Shown one piece after another: positions 28,640 to 50,374 of a DNA stretch of 64,000 nt. A model generated the notes under the pieces. It was not told the DNA's origin and did no database searches. It saw only the letters and a program-made list of their open reading frames with translations. The DNA is taken from NCBI GenBank assembly GCA_913054135.1, contig CAJXJK010000004.1, positions 62,001 through 126,000 of the forward strand, written 5' to 3'. Numbering within the stretch: the first letter of the stretch is position 1; the number at the start of each line of letters is the position of its first letter. A program made the position numbers and the translations under genes. This stretch comes from an uncultured Flavobacteriales bacterium. Its GTDB lineage: Bacteria; Bacteroidota; Bacteroidia; Flavobacteriales_D; Crocinitomicaceae.

Positions 28640-29884
28640 TTAATAATCTCCTAACAGTTTTACTTTCTTCTCGTTTTCAATAACCATGTTGGCGGTCTTG
28701 TTAAAGTCAGTGATTTCGCCAGTAAAACAAACTTCTTTATCCATCAGATAAAGATGAGGTTGATAACTAAAATTGTGAATGTTTGATTCGAATATCGACA
28801 CTGAAAACACTTGATTTGGGAACTTCCTGTCCAAATTGATAAACACGTGTCCTTTTTCATGTTTTTTGGTACTCACAACCTTACCACAAACAGTATGCTT
28901 TCTTCCACTGTTAATCATGATGTGAATGGATTCAGTACTTAAAGTACCTTTAGGCAATCTCTTCTTTTCAAGCGGCAGGACATCTCCCTTTCGGTCTTCG
29001 GGCATCCACAATTGATAATCAAAAGAACTTTCAATCTCAGATTCTAATTGATCTTCTACCCCAGAAAACAGGTCATACCCTAACAAAGTTTCTGCACTAT
29101 CGATACTCACGGCATATGTTTCTAAAGGTTTCTCTATCAGCTCATTTGGCATAACATAGGCGATTCCCCTTTTGTTCTTAAGGTCAAACGCCACTTTCAC
29201 AAAAAGTTTAGGAATAGAAACTTTGTTAACTGATCTTGCGACTTTTTTAAGATCAGCTGAAAGTACTGGTGCTGTTACAACCGCTATGTGAACATTATTG
29301 GTTATTACATATTCTCTCAAATCGTTTTCTAATTCTGCCCATTTCTCACGATTAAAGTCTCCTAATTGAGGTGACATATTCGAGTAATAATAACTCTCAG
29401 ACAATGCAATCGGGCTCCAACGAAAATCAGCCGAAGGTGCTAAATGCCCTCTATCAAAACCGAAACCGTCATACTTATAAGAGCTGTCTGCTTTCATTGT
29501 CTTCAAAAAATAATCAACTTCTTGTGCCGTTCCAGTTTTAACTAGCTCATCTTCTCTAAAATCATTTGTTCTGGAGACATTCCCGTAAATAATGGCTGGC
29601 AAAATTAAATGCATAACCCAATTTGCTTGCTCGTGAGTTTCATTATAAGATAAAGCCAAGGCAGAATGTAGAATGGGTTCATCTTCCCCTTCTCCCTTAG
29701 GAAATTCTAGGGTATTCATCTCATTCATGATCCAATTGAATCTCTCTTTCTCCAGCTGATTTACCAAGTCTGATTCTATTTCTGCCAAAGAATCCAATTT
29801 ACTATAAATGATATCAAATTGGCGCCCATTAGCCTGTCCATAAGAATAGCCTGTAAAGAGCATTAAGAGAGTTAATAATTTCAT
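28640..29884 (-). CDS. Secreted DNA/RNA non-specific endonuclease with a C-terminal OB-like domain
   Basis: A short signal peptide (MKLLTLLMLFTGYSYGQ) is followed by a helical region. The NUC1-type nuclease domain carries the catalytic motif GFDRGHLAPSADF (about residues 140-152) and NMSPQLGDFNREKW, with the metal-binding Asn. These nucleases cut DNA and RNA outside the cytoplasm. The final 100 residues (HTVCGKVVSTKKHEKGHVFI and EVCFTGEIT) look like an OB fold and may help bind nucleic acid. The 414-residue length exceeds a bare NUC1 domain. Confidence 0.85.
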   Translation of the reverse strand: MKLLTLLMLFTGYSYGQANGRQFDIIYSKLDSLAEIESDLVNQLEKERFNWIMNEMNTLEFPKGEGEDEPILHSALALSYNETHEQANWVMHLILPAIIYGNVSRTNDFREDELVKTGTAQEVDYFLKTMKADSSYKYDGFGFDRGHLAPSADFRWSPIALSESYYYSNMSPQLGDFNREKWAELENDLREYVITNNVHIAVVTAPVLSADLKKVARSVNKVSIPKLFVKVAFDLKNKRGIAYVMPNELIEKPLETYAVSIDSAETLLGYDLFSGVEDQLESEIESSFDYQLWMPEDRKGDVLPLEKKRLPKGTLSTESIHIMINSGRKHTVCGKVVSTKKHEKGHVFINLDRKFPNQVFSVSIFESNIHNFSYQPHLYLMDKEVCFTGEITDFNKTANMVIENEKKVKLLGDY

Positions 29885-40443: not shown

Positions 40444-41490
40444 TTAAGCAGCTTTTCTTTTTGCTCTCCATTTTTTGAAGAATCTGATTGATAAAACAAA
40501 AAATAGGCAGGTGAATATTCCAATCCAAAAAACATAGTGAAGAAGAATTGTCTTAAGGTATAAAGGCAATAAACGCCAATTAAAGGATTCATCTGCTGAG
40601 TGTGAAGTCCAATAATCTAGATTGTAATCTTCTATGCTTAGTAAGTCTTGACCAGTTAAAGAGACTGTTTCGAAAGTGAGTTTTCCCTTGGTAGATTTAA
40701 TTTTGAGAATGGCATCTCTTTTTAACCCTCTCACAGCAGTAGCCATATATGTAATTCCACCTTTTTGATGATAAAAGAAGGAAGCAGGAGCGGCTCCACC
40801 CATAGACCCAGCAAACATGTAAACATTAGTTACTTTTTTAAGATCATTTAATATCGGTAGCACCTCAGATTCAAAATTGTTTCCTCCAATGCTTTGAGTA
40901 TTATCTTTAAAAATTGGTTCTAATTCGGGAAGGGCATCCTTCCAAATGGTTCTGTGGGCATAGATAAAAACGTTAGAAATGCTTTTATCTTTTGCCTTAT
41001 TGAGGGCATCCGTTAGAAGTTGAATCTGCTCAGTTGTAATGTTTCCATCATCTAATTCCGTGTCTAAAACCAGATGGATATCATTATCAATCTCAAAAGA
41101 ATAATATGTTTCTCCGAAGTTTTTTTGATAGTAATCATCAGTTAAATCATGATTTCCAACCGCGTTAAACAATGGGAGTTCTAATGAACTGAAAAGTGAT
41201 CTTTGATAATATGAATGATCGTTTTTTACATCTTTGAATAAATCTCCCAAACAAACCAACATTTTAGCATTTGAGGAATTTAGGTAGTTCACATTCCCCA
41301 AAATAGAATTCACTGGATAACCCGTCTTATTGTCTGATCCTCCATAAAAATGACCACTGACGAAAAAACTATATGAACTCTCTAGTGAGTCATTGAATTG
41401 AATCTCTTTCTTGGTAAAAGGTGAGTCCTGCGACCATGTTGATGCGGCAGCAGCAAAGATTAAACTTAATATTAAAATTAAATTCCTCAA
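40444..41490 (-). CDS. Membrane-anchored metallophosphoesterase
   Basis: The 348-residue product has a signal peptide (ending STWSQ) and a calcineurin-like phosphoesterase domain. The metal motifs are CLGDLFKD, NAVGNHDLTDDYY, FIYAHRTIW and FAGSMGG. The usual first motif D-x-H reads SGHFYGG, so the first metal ligand differs. A C-terminal helix (HYVFWIGIFTCLFFVLSIRFF) with a basic tail anchors it, with the catalytic part outside the cytoplasm. It starts at TTG overlapping the stop of the upstream CotH gene (TTGA). It is the last gene of the CotH operon. Confidence 0.8.
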   Translation of the reverse strand: MRNLILILSLIFAAAASTWSQDSPFTKKEIQFNDSLESSYSFFVSGHFYGGSDNKTGYPVNSILGNVNYLNSSNAKMLVCLGDLFKDVKNDHSYYQRSLFSSLELPLFNAVGNHDLTDDYYQKNFGETYYSFEIDNDIHLVLDTELDDGNITTEQIQLLTDALNKAKDKSISNVFIYAHRTIWKDALPELEPIFKDNTQSIGGNNFESEVLPILNDLKKVTNVYMFAGSMGGAAPASFFYHQKGGITYMATAVRGLKRDAILKIKSTKGKLTFETVSLTGQDLLSIEDYNLDYWTSHSADESFNWRLLPLYLKTILLHYVFWIGIFTCLFFVLSIRFFKKWRAKRKAA

Positions 41491-43868
41491 GCCTTTATTA
41501 CATTAATTAAGTCGTCTGAATTTCCACCACTTAAATGATAAGACGAACTAGATTCCAAATCAGAATTTGAGTCTAAATCAAAGCCGTAATCATTGAAGTC
41601 AAAATCACAAGAATATCCGAAGAACTTAGATCCATTATTTATTGAACTTACATGTGCAAGATTTTTGAAAGTAGAATTTCCAAGCCTCAGGTAAGAACCA
41701 TAATCAAGTGAAGAAAAAGAGTTAAAAGAACTTACATCTAGAGAGACTATTATCAGATAAGTGTTATTCGCTACTATTAGCTCGTCACCTTTTTGAGCAG
41801 AAGTATTATGAATTTGAAGTTCACTCTCATTAAACTCTCCGATTGAGTTAACTGAACCGAAAATAGCATTATCAAAGCGAACATTGGACTTTGAAGAATA
41901 CATGAAGTTTTCGTTCATATCGGCCGCTTGGATTGAAGAGAAATTACATATTGATTCATTAACCTTGAAAAATTTACCTCCTCCTACAAAAGTTGCATTG
42001 GTAGCATATGACTCCGAATTTTCAAGAATAAATGCGTCATTTTTAGAATTATTATTCAAAACGACTTGTAAATCTTGAGACCCGGATATTGAAAGCTTCC
42101 CTTTGATTTTAAGTTGTCCTTCATCAACAAAACTAACAGTTTGCCCTCCGAATATGACTAATTCCGTACCTTCTTCAACGAAGTACTTAGAATCAATCTC
42201 AACATTTCCTTCTGAAAAATACCATTGTGTACCTTCCTTGTTTTGAGCAACCTTAGGATGGTTGACTATACTTTCAAAAGCTGCAGTTGATTTTGAAGAA
42301 TCAAGTGCTAAGTAATTAGGATACTCATTAACTTCAATGTCAAAATAATTGTTTGACCCTGGGATATGAGCCTTTAATATTATCGACTTTATCTTTTTTC
42401 CATTGTATTTAAATTCAAACTCCTTGTATTCAGTAAAAGAATTTCGGGGTTTAGATTCGAGATTTACATCATCTAACTTTATTGGAGCTTCTCCATTTAC
42501 AACAGCTTCAGAAATATTAATTGGGAAATCTGAAACCGGAGCTATGCTAATAACAATAGTAGAGTCACTTTTTGAATTCAAAAAGGCATGAGCAGGTTTT
42601 GGCAGATTCAAGTTATGCTTGATTAATTCAATATTATCATAGTAACCCTCAAATGAAAAACGCCTGTAGGGCCATTCAGTAGCAAGAACACCCAGTTTTT
42701 CATTTAATTCTTTTTGAATCTTTAACCTGAAGTCATCAAAGTAAGATTCTTGACAAATTCTTTCAAGATTCTTAATGTAAGCCTCATAGAACACAGGATC
42801 AGAAAAGAGATTGTCATGATAATTAAAATTCGGACCAGATTCTAAGTCAGGAATCCTTTGACCAGCAATTGCCTCAGATTTTCTAATTGAAAAACTTTCA
42901 TATCCTACTGGTTCTATTTTTCCGCTTTCACCGTTATAAAAGAACTTGACATCACTCCAGTCAAGAGAATGATACCCTCCTACAAGGTCGATAATTGCGT
43001 GAAATCTTGCCATTCTTTCGACATCAAAAACTTCACTTGTTGAAAGTGAATCTCTTCTAAACAACTCTAAGAGCTGAGCTCCTTTTTTGTACGTCTCAAT
43101 CAAGAAAGAATCTTTCTTCACAACTCCCCTATCGTATGGCTCAGGGTAAGAACTAGAATAGTCAGAATATTCTTCATTTAAGAAAGTGCCTTGCAATTCG
43201 TCAATACGCCAATCCCAGTATAAACTTGGATTCCACCTCAGGATAGCTCCATTTGGCTTGTTATTATGATCTAAAACATGTTGACCGAAATGCTCTTCCA
43301 TTGCATAAATCCCAAGATCTTTATCATTTAAGTTCACTTTAATAAAATCATAGTTCAAGTGGATCACGTCTTCATTTTTAAGAAGTTCATGGTAAACCCA
43401 TTCGTAGGCATAATTTCTTGTTCCGGGGTGTTGCAATGAAAACCGATACATTCCAAAAATTGATTCTTCTGATTTCACTCTAAATGACCATTTATCACCT
43501 TCAAGATGGTCTGTCATATGTCCTTTCAATCTAATTTCTGCCGAAATGTTCTGATCATTACCAGTTAAAGTGCAGGGCACATAATTATCTCCTACATTTA
43601 TTTGAACTCCTCTATCCAAAGCTATTTGCCTTTTGTCTTCAATAAATTTGTAATCCTTATCGGACATGTCAATCTTCAAATTTTTGACATTCGCGTTTTT
43701 CGACAACTCTTTATTATCAAAATAATTGGAGATATAATCAGACAAATTTTCGAACCCCACCTTCTTCACTTCTCTATTAGCAAAGAAGACTGCGACAGCA
43801 ATTAACAGCAGGAATACAATAGTAATCCTGAATATAAATTTTCTTTTATTTAGCCTTATTTTAGACAT
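41487..43868 (-). CDS. CotH-type kinase with a long beta-rich C-terminal extension
   Basis: The 793-residue protein has one N-terminal membrane helix (ITIVFLLLIAVAVFFA). A CotH-like kinase domain follows, with IRLKGHMTDHLEGDKWSFRV, MYRFSLQHPGTRNYAYEWVYHEL, GIYAMEEHFGQHVL and GYHSLDWSDVKFFYN. The last 250 residues have short repeated strands (GGKFFKVNES, FSSIQAADMNENF) that suggest a right-handed beta helix. CotH kinases phosphorylate Ser residues of spore coat proteins in Bacillus. Here the catalytic part should lie outside the cytoplasm. It overlaps both neighbours. Confidence 0.82.
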   Translation of the reverse strand: MSKIRLNKRKFIFRITIVFLLLIAVAVFFANREVKKVGFENLSDYISNYFDNKELSKNANVKNLKIDMSDKDYKFIEDKRQIALDRGVQINVGDNYVPCTLTGNDQNISAEIRLKGHMTDHLEGDKWSFRVKSEESIFGMYRFSLQHPGTRNYAYEWVYHELLKNEDVIHLNYDFIKVNLNDKDLGIYAMEEHFGQHVLDHNNKPNGAILRWNPSLYWDWRIDELQGTFLNEEYSDYSSSYPEPYDRGVVKKDSFLIETYKKGAQLLELFRRDSLSTSEVFDVERMARFHAIIDLVGGYHSLDWSDVKFFYNGESGKIEPVGYESFSIRKSEAIAGQRIPDLESGPNFNYHDNLFSDPVFYEAYIKNLERICQESYFDDFRLKIQKELNEKLGVLATEWPYRRFSFEGYYDNIELIKHNLNLPKPAHAFLNSKSDSTIVISIAPVSDFPINISEAVVNGEAPIKLDDVNLESKPRNSFTEYKEFEFKYNGKKIKSIILKAHIPGSNNYFDIEVNEYPNYLALDSSKSTAAFESIVNHPKVAQNKEGTQWYFSEGNVEIDSKYFVEEGTELVIFGGQTVSFVDEGQLKIKGKLSISGSQDLQVVLNNNSKNDAFILENSESYATNATFVGGGKFFKVNESICNFSSIQAADMNENFMYSSKSNVRFDNAIFGSVNSIGEFNESELQIHNTSAQKGDELIVANNTYLIIVSLDVSSFNSFSSLDYGSYLRLGNSTFKNLAHVSSINNGSKFFGYSCDFDFNDYGFDLDSNSDLESSSSYHLSGGNSDDLINVIKA

Positions 43869-45237
43869 TACTAATATTCATTTTTTCAGGTGGATGCAAA
43901 GCTAGATTTTCCAATTCAGATTCTGCTAATTCAGTCTCTTCTCCTCTTAAGTTCAAGCCGAAGATTGTCAAATTTATTAAGAATAAAATTGTAAATGGGT
44001 TTAATGAAGCCACCATCCATGATTCATAGGTAGAATTGAAAAATATGGAGACCGCAAAAGCCAATACTATCGGGCTCATTTTAAATGACTTAAGATATAT
44101 TCTAATAAGAGCAGAATAGTAAAAAATTACACCTATTAAACCAGAGTCAAACCAGAACGAGAGATACGAATTATGTACACCTCCATCATGTCCTCTAAAA
44201 CTCAGCCAGTAGTAGTTTGGTCGCATGACATTTTCATCATGTCCAAATCCACCTCCTAAAAAGAATGATTCCTGAATTTGCGTCCAAGCAAACCACCAGG
44301 CTATTTGTCTTCCGGAACCTGCTTCAAGAGAGTCAACTCTAAAGTACGACTCTAGGCCAACAAATGAGACCAGATCAAGAAATCCTTGAAATATCATATC
44401 CGAAAAAATAACGAATACAAAAATGAACAAGAAACCTGCAAACCAATTGAACTTGACAATTCTATAAATTGAATAAAAAAGCACCACTGACATGATTCCA
44501 TTTCTAGAACCGCACCATAATAAAGAAGCGATAATTACAAATAAAACATACCACCTTTCCTTCTTTGTCAATTTTATTAAGTTGAACTCTTCTAGGATAA
44601 TCCATAATATGAAGGTCAGATTCAAGAACACTCCTACTCCATTTGGATTACCAAAAATCCCTTTAAATCTTCCTCCTCCTTCTAGCAACCCTATTTGTGG
44701 AACTGCTGCTCCTAACACAAGCCCAATGGTGAGCATTCCAATTATATATGTTAACAAAGATTTCCAAAATAATTCACCTTGCTCCCTGTGTAAAGTGCTG
44801 ATATAAATAGGAATCATGGTATACATCAAAATGAAAGATAGTGTCTTTTGAATTCCAATCTCCAGCTTAATAGAGAATGCCAGGGCAATTACAGTTATGA
44901 TGAAAAAAGGAACAAAATTTAATAGAAAGGCGGGTATTGGCTTGAAGCGTTCTTTATTCAATAGAAAGAATGCAAAAAGTGAGAGTGGAATTATTGGTTT
45001 CAAGGTTTTTGCGAATTGAAGATCCGCAAACGTGGCATTTTTCACAGGAATGTAGTCAGATAAAATAAGCATCCAAATCGCCAAAATCAACAACTCAAAT
45101 ATTCTTCCTTTAGATCCTAATAAAAATACTAGCAAAGGGAACAAAACATAAATAACGGGCTCTACCCATACACCAAGAACATACATCACAATTAATATGA
45201 TGATGAACTGAATATGATATTTATATGCCGTAATCAT
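43861..45237 (-). CDS. O-antigen polymerase/ligase-like membrane protein
   Basis: The 458-residue protein has about 11 or 12 hydrophobic helices and a periplasmic loop near residues 290-350. That loop includes SGRQIAWWFAWTQIQESFFLGGGFGHDENV and HDGGVHNSYLSFWFDSG, where the HNSYL motif is typical of Wzy_C/WaaL-type O-antigen polymerases and ligases. Such enzymes join sugar units on the periplasmic side. It overlaps the CotH gene downstream by eight bases and shares one base with the CotH gene upstream (taATG). Confidence 0.83.
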   Translation of the reverse strand: MITAYKYHIQFIIILIVMYVLGVWVEPVIYVLFPLLVFLLGSKGRIFELLILAIWMLILSDYIPVKNATFADLQFAKTLKPIIPLSLFAFFLLNKERFKPIPAFLLNFVPFFIITVIALAFSIKLEIGIQKTLSFILMYTMIPIYISTLHREQGELFWKSLLTYIIGMLTIGLVLGAAVPQIGLLEGGGRFKGIFGNPNGVGVFLNLTFILWIILEEFNLIKLTKKERWYVLFVIIASLLWCGSRNGIMSVVLFYSIYRIVKFNWFAGFLFIFVFVIFSDMIFQGFLDLVSFVGLESYFRVDSLEAGSGRQIAWWFAWTQIQESFFLGGGFGHDENVMRPNYYWLSFRGHDGGVHNSYLSFWFDSGLIGVIFYYSALIRIYLKSFKMSPIVLAFAVSIFFNSTYESWMVASLNPFTILFLINLTIFGLNLRGEETELAESELENLALHPPEKMNISNV

Positions 45238-46829
45238 TATAGCTTATTCAATTGCTCTTTATAAATTGATTTTCGAGTCAGGAGAAAATCTAAGTTCTTT
45301 TGACAATTCTCATTCCATTCACTCTTCGTGAAAATTCTCCATCTATTGATATGGTCATCAACATGCTCTTCCAACTCATTTTTATTATCAGTATAAACCT
45401 CATTAATTCTTGAATCTGATAAATTGCTTTCAAGCAACTCTTCACATCTTTGTACAAATTTCGCTTTGAATTTTTCATTGGTCATTAGACCACAGAATAT
45501 TGTCCCGAGATATGTGTCACTACTTTTTAAGTGGTCAAAGCCATTATAATTCACGTTCCCTTCTCCAGGATATGCTAGTGAATAATCAAGGTCATTCAAC
45601 ATCCATTTCCAAGGCTTCTTTTTGATTTTATAACATATCGTGTTATTGTGAGGCCAATCATTGTTACCATAATAAGTTTGAAAAAAAATGTAATCAATGA
45701 ACGACTTGAAATGAATCCGATCCTTAAGATTTTTAACATCTTCATTTGAAAGAGACTCTTTAGATTCAATGTCTGATAGCATTGCATGAAAAGCCGAATG
45801 TTCTTCAATAAGTCCATCTTTTAATTCAGCTTCTCCGTTCTCCAAGAGCGTGATTTTTTCATACTTCTCTCCAAACTCATGCGCCAAATTGTAAGTACTA
45901 ATCCTCTCTCTAAGGTTGTATATCCCCCAATAATTACCGTTTATAAAGACCTCCACTCTTTTTCCTTTTTGCACTTTCACTTTTGAGCCTTCAGCCAACT
46001 GATTCATTAGTAAATCTGCGAAAAGGGTTTTTGTATTATCATTCCCTGAAGTTCTTAAAACATAAGAGGTCGCACCATTTTGATTTTCAAAAACATCACC
46101 TTTAAACTGATCTGCCCCATAATTTTTGCGAGCGTAGAGCTTAAAAGACTTTTGCCCAAATCCTCTTGTTGCGTTACCACTAATTTTAATTCCGCATTTT
46201 TGATTAAAAATTGTTTGACCATTTTCTTGTAGACTCACAAAAGTTGATTTCTCCCAGTCTGCCCCTCTTTGCCTAAAATTCGCATCTCTGTAAAACCAGG
46301 CCTCAGAAAAGCCATCAATGTTATCTCCATGATAACCTAGAACATTAATCCCGTCTTGATAACCCACAAACTGAGATTTAGGAATAGAAATATGCACTTG
46401 AGCCAAATTTGATTTATTGGATTTTACTTCAAGAACTTCTTGTGAACGAATGTTCTTTTTCTCATTGAATAGAATAAGATTTAGTGAGGAGAATTTCGGC
46501 TGGTCCCAATGGGGCACATACCATCTCCATGCTGATGGATATTGTGAAATATTTTCGTTCTCGAATGAATCAAAGTTGATTGACTTTCCTGCCGACTCAA
46601 AATTTTCACCTCCATCAATTGATGCGTAGATCTCAAGGTCAGGATTCAAGACACTAATTTGTCCATTTTCAGAAACTCTCACATTTTCATAAAAGTCAAT
46701 ATCAACATGAGTTTCTTGAACATTAAAAGTTTCTAATGAAACCAAACCTGCTAAGTTTAGTGACAAAAGTAGAAGTGCAATTGAAGTCAAATACACTGGT
46801 AATAACTCTATTTTTTTTAAGAGTTTCAC
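45237..46829 (-). CDS. CotH-type kinase
   Basis: The 530-residue protein has an N-terminal membrane helix, a domain of about 170 residues (YASIDGGENF is Fn3-like), then a CotH kinase core. Motifs include CGIKISGNATRGFGQKSFKLY, SYVLRTSGNDNTKTLFAD, VEVFINGNYWGIYNLRERI, and the catalytic WKWMLNDLDYSLAY with the conserved D-x-D. The start is GTG 46829, overlapping the stop of the upstream small membrane gene (GTGA). Extracytoplasmic protein or glycan phosphorylation is inferred from the family. Confidence 0.85.
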   Translation of the reverse strand: MKLLKKIELLPVYLTSIALLLLSLNLAGLVSLETFNVQETHVDIDFYENVRVSENGQISVLNPDLEIYASIDGGENFESAGKSINFDSFENENISQYPSAWRWYVPHWDQPKFSSLNLILFNEKKNIRSQEVLEVKSNKSNLAQVHISIPKSQFVGYQDGINVLGYHGDNIDGFSEAWFYRDANFRQRGADWEKSTFVSLQENGQTIFNQKCGIKISGNATRGFGQKSFKLYARKNYGADQFKGDVFENQNGATSYVLRTSGNDNTKTLFADLLMNQLAEGSKVKVQKGKRVEVFINGNYWGIYNLRERISTYNLAHEFGEKYEKITLLENGEAELKDGLIEEHSAFHAMLSDIESKESLSNEDVKNLKDRIHFKSFIDYIFFQTYYGNNDWPHNNTICYKIKKKPWKWMLNDLDYSLAYPGEGNVNYNGFDHLKSSDTYLGTIFCGLMTNEKFKAKFVQRCEELLESNLSDSRINEVYTDNKNELEEHVDDHINRWRIFTKSEWNENCQKNLDFLLTRKSIYKEQLNKL

Positions 46830-47236
46830 TCTGATTTAAGAGGAGTTAATAGGATAAGAGATGAGATAAAGACCATACCTATTGTTGCTTGAACCACACT
46901 TCCTACTCCACATGCTAATCCAAGAAGTACAATCAAAAAGAATCCTAGGACACTTGCCTTAGATTTTAATTCTGTTTTCATTCCTAGAATAATCAAGACA
47001 GCCGCGGCCATTACTGCGAAAGGAAGCGAATATTTAGCAATCCCAACAATTAAAGCCACTGAGGCCGCAATAAGGGGTGCTGAAGAGACAGCCGTTTCTC
47101 CTGCTTTTTTGTTTATTATTTTCTGAATGACCCAAGCTAACAAAGCAGCCATTACTAACTGAAAAAGCATGATTGGGATGTTCTTTGGCGAAAATCCATT
47201 CATACTTTCAATAAGGATATCTTTAATAGTTCCCAT
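46826..47236 (-). CDS. Small four-helix membrane protein
   Basis: The 136-residue protein has about four hydrophobic helices (MLFQLVMAALLAWVIQ, LIAASVALIVGIA, LPFAVMAAAVLIILGM, FISSLILLTPL) with short lysine-rich loops. The size and arrangement resemble DUF4956-type proteins that accompany CotH genes in other bacteria. That link is recalled, not confirmed. It sits between rmlA (three bases away) and the first CotH gene (four-base overlap). Confidence 0.7.
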   Translation of the reverse strand: MGTIKDILIESMNGFSPKNIPIMLFQLVMAALLAWVIQKIINKKAGETAVSSAPLIAASVALIVGIAKYSLPFAVMAAAVLIILGMKTELKSKASVLGFFLIVLLGLACGVGSVVQATIGMVFISSLILLTPLKSE

Positions 47237-47239
47237 TTT

Positions 47240-48121
47240 TTATATCATTTTATTTTTTTCGTCTAATATCTTCAGCAGGTATTGCCCGTACTGATTCTTT
47301 GCCAATGGCTGCGCTAATTTCTCTAGCTGCTTGGCGTCTATAAAACCTCTTCTAAATGCGATTTCTTCAAGACAAGAGACCTTCAATCCTTGTCTTTGCT
47401 CAATTGAGGCTATAAAATTCGAAGCCTGAATCAATGATTCGTGAGTTCCGGTATCTAACCAAGCCATTCCTCTACCAAGTAATTCAGTTTTGAGAGTGCC
47501 TTCTTCTAAATACAATTTGTTCAAATCAGTAATTTCTAGTTCTCCTCTTGCCGAAGGTTTAAGGCCTTTAGCCTTCTCTACCACAGTATTATCGTAATAA
47601 TACAGACCTGTGACTGCATAATTTGATTTAGGATTTGTAGGCTTTTCTTCTAAGCCAATTGCTTTCTTGTTCTCATCAAACTCCACTACCCCATATCTTT
47701 CAGGATCGTTTACATAATATCCAAAAACTGTTGCTCCAGATTTAATTTCGGCTGATCGTCTCAATATGGTTGAAAGTCCGTATCCATAAAAAATGTTGTC
47801 TCCCAAAACCAGACAAACCGAGTCGTCACCTATGAATTCTTCGCCTAGAATGAAAGCTTGTGCTAAACCATCAGGTGATGGTTGAACTTTGTATTCAATT
47901 GAAATCCCTAATTCACTTCCATCACCTAGCAGCTCTTCAAATACTAGAATATCTCTTGGTGTAGAAATAATCAAAATATCCCTAATCCCTGACAGCATGA
48001 GAACTGATAAAGGGTAGTAAATCATGGGCTTATCATAGATTGGCAAAATCTGCTTTGAAACAGCCTTTGTCAAGGGATACAACCTTGTTCCTGAGCCACC
48101 TGCTAATACGATTCCTTTCAT
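47240..48121 (-). CDS. rfbA: Glucose-1-phosphate thymidylyltransferase RmlA
   Basis: RmlA makes dTDP-glucose, the first step to dTDP-rhamnose and other deoxysugars. The nucleotide-binding start [21 protein letters not shown] and [11 protein letters not shown] are intact. [11 protein letters not shown] and [19 protein letters not shown], and [10 protein letters not shown] near the end, complete the signature. The 293-residue length is normal. It is the first gene of a six-gene minus-strand operon with CotH kinases and a polymerase-like protein. No rmlB, rmlC or rmlD is in the window. Confidence 0.96.
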
Positions 48122-48259: not shown

Positions 48260-49495
48260 ATGAAGATTCTATTTACGCTATTCATAGCCGCAATAAGCCT
48301 TTCGGCGAATTCTCAATGTGACTCAACTGAACAAGAAGTTGGCGGAACCATGGTCACCAATGGAGTGAAAAAAGTTGAAATCAAATTAGATGACAGAAAC
48401 GGAATGATTCCAGGACCGGGTCAAATTCTCTTTTTGAATAAATATTTTGAGTCGTCTCTATTCGGATTCAAATCTACAGGTTGGCTCGATATTGCAAAGG
48501 CTGAGGCAACAGGCTATGATGAAGTCAATAACAAAATTAGATTGAGAATCATTGAAGAACACTCTGAAATGACCATTAACGGTAAAAAGAAGAATCATTT
48601 TGAAAGAGGAAATATTGTCAAATTGAACTGGAAAACACCTCCGCTAATTGAAACCAAATATGAAATTACGGATGGAGACACTTTAGGAAAAGGTGAATTA
48701 CATTGTGGTTATCGTCATGGGGTTTGGAAGTACTATTACAGAAATGGGCAATTACAAGAAGAAGATAATTATCACATGGGCAAACCTGACGGCAATTACA
48801 AAGCTTGGTATGATGATGGCGCCATCAAAGAGACTGGAAAATATTACAGAGGATCAAGAGAAGGTAAGTTGACTTTTTATTATCAAAATGGAAACATTAA
48901 GAAAAGTGTGAATTACACGGCAAATATGAAAGACGGACCATATGAGAAATTTCATGAGGACGGGACTCCTGACTATAAAGCAACCTATGTTCAAGGAGAT
49001 TTGGCAGGACCTTTTTCTTATTACTATGAAGACGGTACTTTGAAAGAAGAAGGCACACACGACATGGGAAAAATTGAAGGACCTCTCAACGGCTATTACG
49101 AAGACGGAAAGTTATTTTTCAAGGCAAACGTTCATAAGGATAAAAAACACGGATCATATGAAGGATTCTATCGTACAGGCCCAAAATATATTGAAACCAA
49201 CTACACCATGGGCAAGATAGATGGTCCTTACATTGAATATCATAAAAATGGAGAAATTGCCGTCATTTCAAATTTCAAACTAGGAATTGAAGAAGGAAAT
49301 TACTCATCTTCTTACCCTAACGGAACTCTGAAAATGAAGGGTTTAAAAAAGAACGGCACGAAGATTGGATATTGGGAAGAGTATTATTCTAACGGAGATT
49401 CAAAGTCTCAAGGAACCTTTTCAGAAGACGGTAAAAAGATCGGGAAATGGTTTGAATGGAATGAAAAAGGAAAGAAGACAAAAACGAAGTACTAA
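48260..49495 (+). CDS. Secreted MORN-repeat protein (YwqK-like)
   Basis: The 411-residue protein has a signal peptide ending SANSQ. After about 110 residues, a C-terminal array of roughly ten MORN-variant repeats of about 23 residues follows the pattern G-x-W/Y-x-x-Y-Y-x-N-G-x-x-K. Examples are GVWKYYYRNGQLQEE and GPYEKFHEDGTPDYK. The family is often named YwqK antitoxin-like, but no toxin gene is present, so that label should not be taken as function. A second MORN gene follows after 36 bases. Confidence 0.85.
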   Translation: MKILFTLFIAAISLSANSQCDSTEQEVGGTMVTNGVKKVEIKLDDRNGMIPGPGQILFLNKYFESSLFGFKSTGWLDIAKAEATGYDEVNNKIRLRIIEEHSEMTINGKKKNHFERGNIVKLNWKTPPLIETKYEITDGDTLGKGELHCGYRHGVWKYYYRNGQLQEEDNYHMGKPDGNYKAWYDDGAIKETGKYYRGSREGKLTFYYQNGNIKKSVNYTANMKDGPYEKFHEDGTPDYKATYVQGDLAGPFSYYYEDGTLKEEGTHDMGKIEGPLNGYYEDGKLFFKANVHKDKKHGSYEGFYRTGPKYIETNYTMGKIDGPYIEYHKNGEIAVISNFKLGIEEGNYSSSYPNGTLKMKGLKKNGTKIGYWEEYYSNGDSKSQGTFSEDGKKIGKWFEWNEKGKKTKTKY

Positions 49496-49507
49496 ATTTT
49501 AGTATTT

Positions 49508-49515
49508 TAGCTTTG
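49508..49515 (+). promoter_or_regulatory. -7 element TAGCTTTG before the second MORN gene
   Basis: TAGCTTTG fits TAnnTTTG. It lies in the 36-base gap between the two MORN genes, so the second can be transcribed separately. Confidence 0.45.
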
Positions 49516-49531
49516 TGAAAAGATGGAAATT

Positions 49532-50374
49532 ATGATGAAAAATTTACTTTTATTAAGCTCATTATTATTTATTGGTGTTAGCGTAAACGCACAATGCGAC
49601 AAGAAAGAGTATACTGAAAAGTATAAGAACGGTTCTTACGTTATTGGTCAATTGGCTTGTGACGAAAAGACTGGGGAGTGGAAATACTTTGATAAAAATG
49701 ATAAACTCTTAAAAAGAGTAAATTTTGTGAAAGGTCAATTAAATGGTGAAAGATCAATCTGGTATCCAAACGGACAACAAAAAGCGTTGGAGAATTGGTC
49801 TAATGGTAAGTTAAACGGAATCGTTCAGTATTGGACTGAAGACGGTACAATGACTGAGGAATCTAATTACGAGAACGGAAACCTTGAAGGAACTCAACAA
49901 GAGTGGTACGCTAACGGAAAAAAGAAATCTTTAACCACATACATCAGCGGCAAGAAATCAGGTGAATATGAAGCTTACTATGAAAATGGAAACCTCAAAG
50001 GAAAAGGAAAATTCTTGGAAGGAGAACCTGACGGAGATATCAAATCATTTTTTGAAGGAGGAGCACTTTCTTCTGAAATTAACTTCGTTGACGGCGTTCA
50101 AAATGGAAAATACACGACATTTTTTAAAGACGGTTCTATTTCAGTTCAAGGTGAATATGAAGAAGGCAATCAAATTGGATTATGGAAAACTTTCCACGTT
50201 AATGGTCAACTTATCGCCAATGGCTTTTATAAAGCGGGAAGTAAGGAAGGACTTTGGGAAGAGTGGTACATGACTGGTAAGCCAAAATCAAAAGGAACCT
50301 ACTCAAATGGTGAAAAGGTTGAAGTTTGGTACGAATGGGATTCAGCCGGTAAGAAGACCAAAACCAAGTTCTAA
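49532..50374 (+). CDS. Secreted MORN-repeat protein (YwqK-like), second copy
   Basis: The chosen start is ATG 49532, followed by a signal peptide (LLLLSSLLFIGVSVNAQ). Two other in-frame ATGs (49523, 49535) are close. The 280-residue product consists almost entirely of about nine MORN-variant repeats, such as GEWKYFDKNDKLLKR and GLWEEWYMTGKPKSK. It ends like its neighbour (AGKKTKTKF against KGKKTKTKY), so the two are recent paralogues. Next is the Nramp-like gene, three bases after the stop. Confidence 0.83.
   Translation: MMKNLLLLSSLLFIGVSVNAQCDKKEYTEKYKNGSYVIGQLACDEKTGEWKYFDKNDKLLKRVNFVKGQLNGERSIWYPNGQQKALENWSNGKLNGIVQYWTEDGTMTEESNYENGNLEGTQQEWYANGKKKSLTTYISGKKSGEYEAYYENGNLKGKGKFLEGEPDGDIKSFFEGGALSSEINFVDGVQNGKYTTFFKDGSISVQGEYEEGNQIGLWKTFHVNGQLIANGFYKAGSKEGLWEEWYMTGKPKSKGTYSNGEKVEVWYEWDSAGKKTKTKF

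Follow-up and report, generated by a model that had tools for sequence, protein, structure and literature searches.

A conserved CotH-Wzy-phosphoesterase block in Bacteroidota, probably related to the CotH-VTC-DUF4956 module of Pel loci

In streptococci and clostridia, genes for CotH, a polyphosphate polymerase, DUF4956 and DUF4832 lie beside pelDEADAFG, and the authors who described this arrangement proposed that the Pel-linked CotH phosphorylates protein (PMC7112168). The CotH, VTC and four-transmembrane (4-TM) genes of Streptococcus intermedius (SIR_1592-1594) have been deleted, in a 2025 study whose authors failed to find this trio in synteny outside Pel (PMC12345266). CotH domains also occur in Sfz6, in the Zetaproteobacteria stalk gene set (PMC8250860). 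In yeast, the polyphosphate that the VTC complex synthesises is transported in a coupled step through its transmembrane (TM) channel (PMC9911596). Here we analyse a block of six open reading frames (ORFs), all on the minus strand at 40444-48121 of a 64,000-nt stretch of DNA (the window) from an uncultured Crocinitomicaceae bacterium. The block is a genuine, conserved operon-like unit with the core MP136-CotH1-Wzy-CotH2-MPE and with rmlA as a neighbour outside that core. Comparison of the sequences indicates that the window's block is a reduced version of the CotH-VTC-DUF4956 module found in Pel loci of Gram-positive bacteria, linked here to a Wzy that can be exchanged. We tentatively suggest, giving the idea a little less than an even chance, that the surface glycan made by Wzy is phosphorylated or processed by the block on the outer side of the inner membrane. 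The initial annotation of this DNA held that no system of such composition had been described, which is too strong, since the CotH-VTC-DUF4956 combination is published for Pel loci and MP136 appears to be a shortened DUF4956 protein. The features of the block, in gene order, are the following.

47240..48121, minus strand: RmlA, glucose-1-phosphate thymidylyltransferase (TIGR01207, 505.4 bits against a cut-off of 360.65; Pfam NTP_transferase, E 1.7e-77)
46826..47236, minus strand: MP136, a 136-residue 4-TM protein, probable shortened DUF4956 homologue (profile and pairwise matches, hydropathy)
45237..46829, minus strand: CotH1, predicted membrane-anchored CotH kinase with its motif residues intact (Pfam, alignment, model)
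43861..45237, minus strand: Wzy, Wzy_C-family polymerase or ligase, exchangeable between loci
41487..43868, minus strand: CotH2, predicted membrane-anchored CotH fold with an altered site, plus a right-handed beta-helix
40444..41490, minus strand: MPE, divergent calcineurin-like phosphoesterase with a C-terminal hydrophobic segment (315-333)

The six single-strand, tightly packed genes of the initial annotation are all present where it placed them, with gaps from rmlA to MPE of +3, -4, -1, -8 and -4 bases, and the gene order is indeed conserved in other Bacteroidota. The core stands in one order in 35 distinct loci, each place counted once: the window, 13 loci L039-L051, L068, L069 and 19 loci L073-L091. 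All five genes are present in 28 of them (L068, L069 and L083 each with an end gene clipped at the contig end), and the seven that lack at least one gene at a contig end (L039, L043, L046, L079, L084, L087, L088) keep the order as far as their contigs reach; a different core order was found in none of the 35. In some loci Wzy and CotH2 are separated by an additional gene, or by two as in L081 and L082. The loci fall into the Crocinitomicaceae clade of the window (CotH2 43-50% identical) and a more distant second clade of Bacteroidota (L073-L091), with mean identities between the clades of 0.26 for the membrane protein, 0.28 for CotH1, 0.35 for Wzy, 0.30 for CotH2 and 0.41 for MPE. Named records of the loci in the window's family are labelled Crocinitomix, Crocinitomicaceae, Flavobacteriales or Bacteroidetes/Bacteroidia.

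How widespread is the block? A full-length CotH2 orthologue, 45-50% identical to that of the window, is found in 14 of 150 sampled genomes of the family. Scanning the genomes of 84,980 species yielded 33 loci, 12 of them repeats of loci in the family sample and 19 of them the second clade; since the search patterns were derived from the clade of the window, 33 is a lower bound. In a phylum-wide sample, where at most two candidates were scored per genome, 3 of 395 genomes matched at E <= 1e-100, the block itself being present only in the window's own genome and the other two carrying DUF4956-CotH-VTC. Such sporadic occurrence (14/150 in the family), together with the variable position of rmlA, would fit genes that are chance neighbours, or that remain from an old glycan cluster and no longer work together. 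This is very improbable, however, and already contradicted, because core order and strand are the same in the 28 full loci, the five-gene order being shared by every locus across clades only about 30% identical in CotH2.

The place of rmlA in the operon is only partly borne out. It directly precedes the core in six loci (window, L039, L040, L042, L045, L051) and its position is not fixed elsewhere: in L041, L044, L048, L049 and L050 a gene of 328-349 aa on the opposite strand stands between rmlA and the core (the one that was scanned encodes an acyltransferase 3), joined in four of these five by a 467-490 aa gene. The latter precedes MP136 in five loci and has a weak type I phosphodiesterase match in the one scanned. 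In the remaining loci of the window's clade the contig ends before rmlA would be reached, and the stretches retrieved for the second clade gave no match to RmlA (E < 1e-10). Divergent from rmlA, two MORN-repeat genes (window 48260-50374) stand beside the block, as they do in several relatives. Farther off, at 28640-29884, the window encodes a protein of 414 aa that contains the domain of DNA/RNA non-specific endonucleases (PF01223).

The relation to the Pel module is most easily seen in the membrane protein. At E <= 0.1 Pfam gives nothing for MP136, which so does not reach the DUF4956 (PF16316) cut-off; its profile nevertheless matches the first upstream protein of the second-clade loci, a DUF4956 protein, at 2e-15 to 3e-19, and the DUF4956 protein of L074 matches MP136 relatives at 3e-15 to 2e-7. 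The alignment spans the TM region only and MP136 lacks the C-terminal soluble part, so that MP136 is, as far as these matches go, a DUF4956 homologue shortened to its TM part. Two MP136 relatives also give weak, sub-cut-off MgtC matches, which fit a DUF4956 identity, given the MgtC-like character ascribed to the homologue in Pel loci.

In the second clade the module appears more nearly complete. Proteins of 227-248 aa and 221-234 aa are encoded upstream of CotH1 in 15 of the 15 loci with all five genes; one ORF lies between DUF4956 and VTC in L077, and about 1 kb separates VTC from CotH1 in L074. By Pfam the first protein of L074 is DUF4956 (1.6e-17) and the second is VTC in L074 (9.9e-29) and L082 (6.4e-26), with no other domain named in these two VTC proteins; in the other second-clade loci both were assigned by similarity to the L074 and L082 proteins. 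Among PDB structures the second-clade VTC matches Vtc4, the polyphosphate polymerase of yeast (3g3q, E 3.4e-7). Its invariant K16, R74, R76, R151 and R162 stand, in an alignment counted by hand, opposite K200, R264, R266, R361 and R373 of Vtc4, which we take to be functional residues there. A membrane protein gene lies nearby in the second clade, reminiscent of the yeast VTC complex, though any homology between DUF4956 and Vtc1 would be conjectural. VTC is absent from the window's block. No VTC was found in the stretches L059-L072 of the window's clade either.

The second-clade block thus has all three parts of the Pel accessory module, in which CotH, a DUF4956/MgtC-type 4-TM protein and VTC are contiguous with polysaccharide genes. 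Compared with that module, a Wzy_C protein takes the place of pelDEADAFG as partner, and a beta-helix CotH2 and a phosphoesterase are added; the window's block moreover has no VTC and keeps only the TM part of the DUF4956 homologue. The genes scanned beside the window block and in L074, L081 and L085 included none assigned to a Pel family, though pel profiles were not searched. From their sequences the 15 second-clade loci look like the trio outside Pel, as do L125 and L126 (in genomes G402 and G168). These two, from other Bacteroidota, hold a contiguous DUF4956-CotH-VTC, a minimal form of the module, and the 18-19 kb stretches examined around it gave no CotH1, Wzy or MPE match. A related order, VTC-membrane protein-resolvase-VTC-membrane protein-CotH, is tabulated for NELoc-2 of C. 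perfringens, with a putative glycosyl(transferase) entry three genes beyond CotH (PMC2879425, 2010); the portion of that paper covered lists no Wzy, second CotH or phosphoesterase. From size and location we infer that the NELoc-2 membrane proteins, annotated tubulin/FtsZ, may be DUF4956. Our literature search, which most subscription papers lay outside, found no description of the Wzy/CotH2/phosphoesterase block.

Where scanned, the surroundings of the second-clade loci are those of glycan clusters. The scan there covered the genes of L074, L081 and L085 and one gene of L082, among 19 loci: glycosyltransferase (GT1, GT2), epimerase, DegT aminotransferase and asparagine-synthase genes lie around L074; L081 and L085 carry MBOAT genes; and an acyltransferase is also named in the set from these three loci. 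We propose that the ancestral form was probably DUF4956-VTC-CotH1-Wzy-CotH2-MPE within a glycan cluster; alternatively, the second clade may have gained VTC. Away from the block, a single VTC gene and a single DUF4956 gene are adjacent in the window's genome (C1:78087-79365), and we considered such a separate pair as a marker of genomes with the block. VTC occurs in 14 of 14 such genomes and DUF4956 in 13 (the exception is a 67% complete genome), but the link is weak and the pair says little, because VTC occurs in 115 of the 150 family genomes and the block in 14.

We now turn to the individual proteins. CotH1 matches Pfam CotH (PF08757) at E 2.8e-33 (116.2 bits against a cut-off of 23.8). Its motif residues are K227, D391-W392, N395-N396 and D413-x-D415; none of K227, D391-W392, N395-N396, D413 and D415 varies in the alignment, which holds 26 sequences from 26 of the 35 loci. 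Its AlphaFold2 model (pLDDT, predicted local distance difference test, 83) superposes on B. cereus CotH (5jd9) with Z 31.3 and root-mean-square deviation (rmsd) 2.5 over 330 residues, and Foldseek gives E 4e-11. CotH1 is therefore a predicted kinase with an intact CotH site and fold. The fold of the Bacillus spore-coat kinase (5jd9/5jda) is common to CotH1 and the kinase-like part of CotH2, at a sequence identity of about 14-15%; unlike Bacillus CotH, the window's proteins are membrane anchored and CotH2 lacks the DxD. Bacteroidota are, to our knowledge, not spore formers. In searches of the PDB at E <= 1 the CotH1 and CotH2 sequence profiles found no B. cereus CotH, the best other chain reaching E 0.025. 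D228 and D251, the residues named for B. subtilis CotH (PMC7821199), were matched to CotH1 by motif and spacing, with no residue alignment. Elsewhere in the window's genome (G000), three more CotH genes (L053, L057, L058) lie beside, or one gene from, a PorP/SprF gene, which suggests a second use of CotH-like proteins in the family, linked to type IX secretion (T9SS).

CotH2 is quite different. Its Pfam CotH match (E 8.7e-5, 22.6 bits) is just under the 23.8 cut-off, rising to 24.2 with its neighbours in the frame, and its L074 orthologue scores 48.9 bits. The model (pLDDT 85; pTM, predicted template modelling score, 0.63) places residues ~60-422 on 5jd9 with Z 24.8 and rmsd 3.0 over 308, and residues ~523-793 form a right-handed beta-helix nearest AlgG (4nk8, Z 21.5, rmsd 2.8 over 249). 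As many tailspikes, lyases and polygalacturonases/hydrolases score Z about 18-21, the AlgG likeness is one of fold type only. The initial annotation spoke of a kinase pair. CotH1 has the expected catalytic residues (K227, D391, D413, D415) and fold, but the DxD stretch of CotH2 reads [GAS]YE in 28 of 28 aligned orthologues, in which D303, W304, D306 and E324 are invariant, and the pair dissolves into one predicted kinase and one CotH fold with an AlgG-like beta-helix. The alignment covers 28 of the 35 loci; L042, L046, L047 and L048 were read separately (GYE), so that the motif is read in all loci except L084, L088 and L089. CotH2 columns were matched to the CotH1 DxD by motif. Residue superposition was not used because profile comparison of the two small alignments gave a probability of 1.1 and the CotH1 profile aligns to CotH2-like paralogues over a stretch of only ~50 residues that lies outside the active site. 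Close to the altered site, residues 299-302 and 342-346 are modelled with low confidence.

The 18 CotH2-like paralogues (L007, L008, L023-L038; 13 of them about 960-1080 aa), a set that leaves out one 248-aa fragment (L023) under an E 1e-20 threshold, have xWHN...D in place of the catalytic motif and may be pseudokinases. None has Asp at the D303 column, and all 18 have Asn at D306 and Asp at E324. Since this site pattern is opposite, the CotH2 of the block is a distinct, conserved kind of CotH-fold protein, no decaying copy, though it may or may not be active. A further CotH2-like protein of 866 aa is encoded in the window's genome at L124:7846-10446 (G000:C13) and scores 474 bits with the CotH2 model of the block; no other gene of the block lies in the 19 kb stretch that holds it.

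MPE reaches Pfam Metallophos (PF00149) marginally (E 3.2e-4, 21.6 bits against a cut-off of 21.5), its N-terminus resembles a signal peptide by eye, and no PDB relative was found by sequence at E <= 0.1. In 27 aligned sequences, from 27 of the 35 loci, G46-H47, G82-D83, G112-N113-H114-D115 and H179 are invariant. We take the metal motifs of such phosphoesterases to be DxH, GDxx, GNHD, H and GHxH. The first-motif position reads SGH in 26 sequences and GGH in one, the usual Asp being replaced, and the final GHxH is lacking in all 27, its likely place reading GS. The phosphatase and the reversible phosphorylation proposed in the initial annotation are thus not supported by the motifs, and of CotH1, CotH2 and MPE only CotH1 appears to have a textbook site. 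As for the shared membrane side, hydropathy gives several hydrophobic segments in MP136 and a single N-terminal one in CotH1 and in CotH2; because of these and the C-terminal segment of MPE, the three domains are plausibly periplasmic, on the same side as Wzy, so that the topology proposed for a kinase pair and a phosphatase is retained.

Could the block then be mostly structural, with CotH2 and MPE as dead folds that scaffold polymer transit or attachment together with MP136, and CotH1 and Wzy as the only enzymes? The altered sites just described, in all 28 aligned CotH2 and all 27 aligned MPE sequences, and the beta-helix would fit such a role. On the other hand D303, D306 and E324 of CotH2 are strictly invariant and acidic, with no degeneration, and H47, D83, N113, H114, D115 and H179 of MPE are likewise invariant; we consider a mostly structural block unlikely.

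The Wzy protein behaves as an exchangeable part. It matches Wzy_C (PF04932) at E 3.8e-9 (36.9 bits against a cut-off of 31.7). L060 (= L040) and L068 share an alternative Wzy, 58% identical between the two and 31-32% to the rest, and both carry an SGNH-like gene. This weak GDSL/SGNH-like gene lies between Wzy and CotH2 in L039, L040 and L068 and is homologous among the three (Pfam E 0.02-0.03, below cut-off, in L039 and L040, which were scanned); in L039, of the window's genus, Wzy is 30% identical to the window's. We read these sequences as a swap of Wzy and the SGNH-like gene as one unit. With L060 and L068 included (13 loci), correlations of Wzy distances with the rest are 0.34-0.48 and those among the other four genes 0.87-0.95; without them (11 loci) r is 0.80-0.96 for distances across the whole five-gene set. 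An independently drifting Wzy was therefore rejected: because co-divergence returns, the data show exchange of Wzy, no general independence. One Crocinitomicaceae metagenome-assembled genome (MAG) holds two copies of the block, L068 and L069, which differ most in Wzy (identity 91% for the membrane protein, 73% for MPE, 69% for CotH2, 61% for CotH1 and 32% for Wzy, though MAG mixing is possible).

Taken together, how might such a block act on a glycan? A surface polysaccharide is suggested as the target because the conserved partners are Wzy, a beta-helix, acyl-modifying insertions and glycan clusters, and CotH1 in turn suggests that phosphate is transferred on the outer side of the inner membrane. 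Glycosyltransferases encoded elsewhere would assemble the repeat unit on a lipid carrier, with a sugar nucleotide supplied through RmlA, and Wzy would join the units. CotH1 would transfer phosphate to the emerging chain or a closely tied protein, CotH2 would hold the chain through its beta-helix and position or help CotH1, MPE would bind or remove a phosphate ester, and the 4-TM protein would anchor the assembly. In the second clade VTC and DUF4956 could couple the block to cytosolic polyphosphate. We count in favour of glycan processing that the insertions of the window's clade are of glycan-modifying types (weak GDSL/SGNH, acyltransferase 3), and that deletion of the related Pel-locus CotH lowers polysaccharide amount and aggregation (PMC12345266).

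Several points weigh against glycan phosphorylation. CotH2 and MPE may, given their altered catalytic motifs, be no enzymes. The window's genome has six Wzy_C genes, so that the Wzy of the block need not make the main surface glycan, and the scan of window ORFs, which covered 30 of 63, named no glycosyltransferase. Correlations in the second clade are weaker (r 0.24-0.92, or 0.27-0.80 without L085), and co-divergence was compared among the five core genes only, with no unrelated vertical gene as a yardstick. In S. intermedius Pel is made without the CotH, VTC or 4-TM gene and the mutants still aggregate; loss of the 4-TM (MgtC/ACT) gene gives more Pel and loss of CotH (SIR_1594) less, each cutting aggregation by >50% in sputum medium (PMC12345266). 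These genes modulate Pel output without being required. Finally, the characterised CotH, that of B. subtilis, phosphorylates proteins rather than glycans (PMC7821199).

For this last reason protein phosphorylation is a serious rival, although we judge it somewhat unlikely: CotH1 would phosphorylate Ser/Thr of a protein, such as Wzy loops, MP136 or a secreted surface protein, and so tune polymer output, with MPE reversing the modification. The proposal of the Pel authors for their own CotH (PMC7112168) points the same way, as does the fact that deletion of SIR_1594 lowers Pel and does not abolish it. It is harder to reconcile with an MPE that lacks the metal motifs we take as canonical and with the polysaccharide-type beta-helix of CotH2.

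Returning to glycan phosphorylation, one more specific version concerns the phosphoryl donor, ATP being absent outside the cytosol. By analogy with yeast, VTC and DUF4956 could form a minimal bacterial counterpart of the VTC complex that synthesises polyphosphate in the cytosol and exports it as donor for a CotH kinase acting on the Wzy-made glycan, with CotH2 gripping the chain; the lineage of the window would have kept the outer part and would use the VTC-DUF4956 encoded elsewhere or another donor. This we offer as a conjecture, and a distinctly improbable one.

More generally, our analysis would widen the CotH-VTC-DUF4956 module, so far discussed for the Pel loci of Gram-positive bacteria, to the Gram-negative Bacteroidota and their glycan loci of the Wzy type, where it gains two conserved parts, the beta-helix CotH2 and the phosphoesterase. 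This makes testable both the role of CotH in non-spore-forming bacteria and the source of the phosphoryl donor for kinases outside the cytosol.

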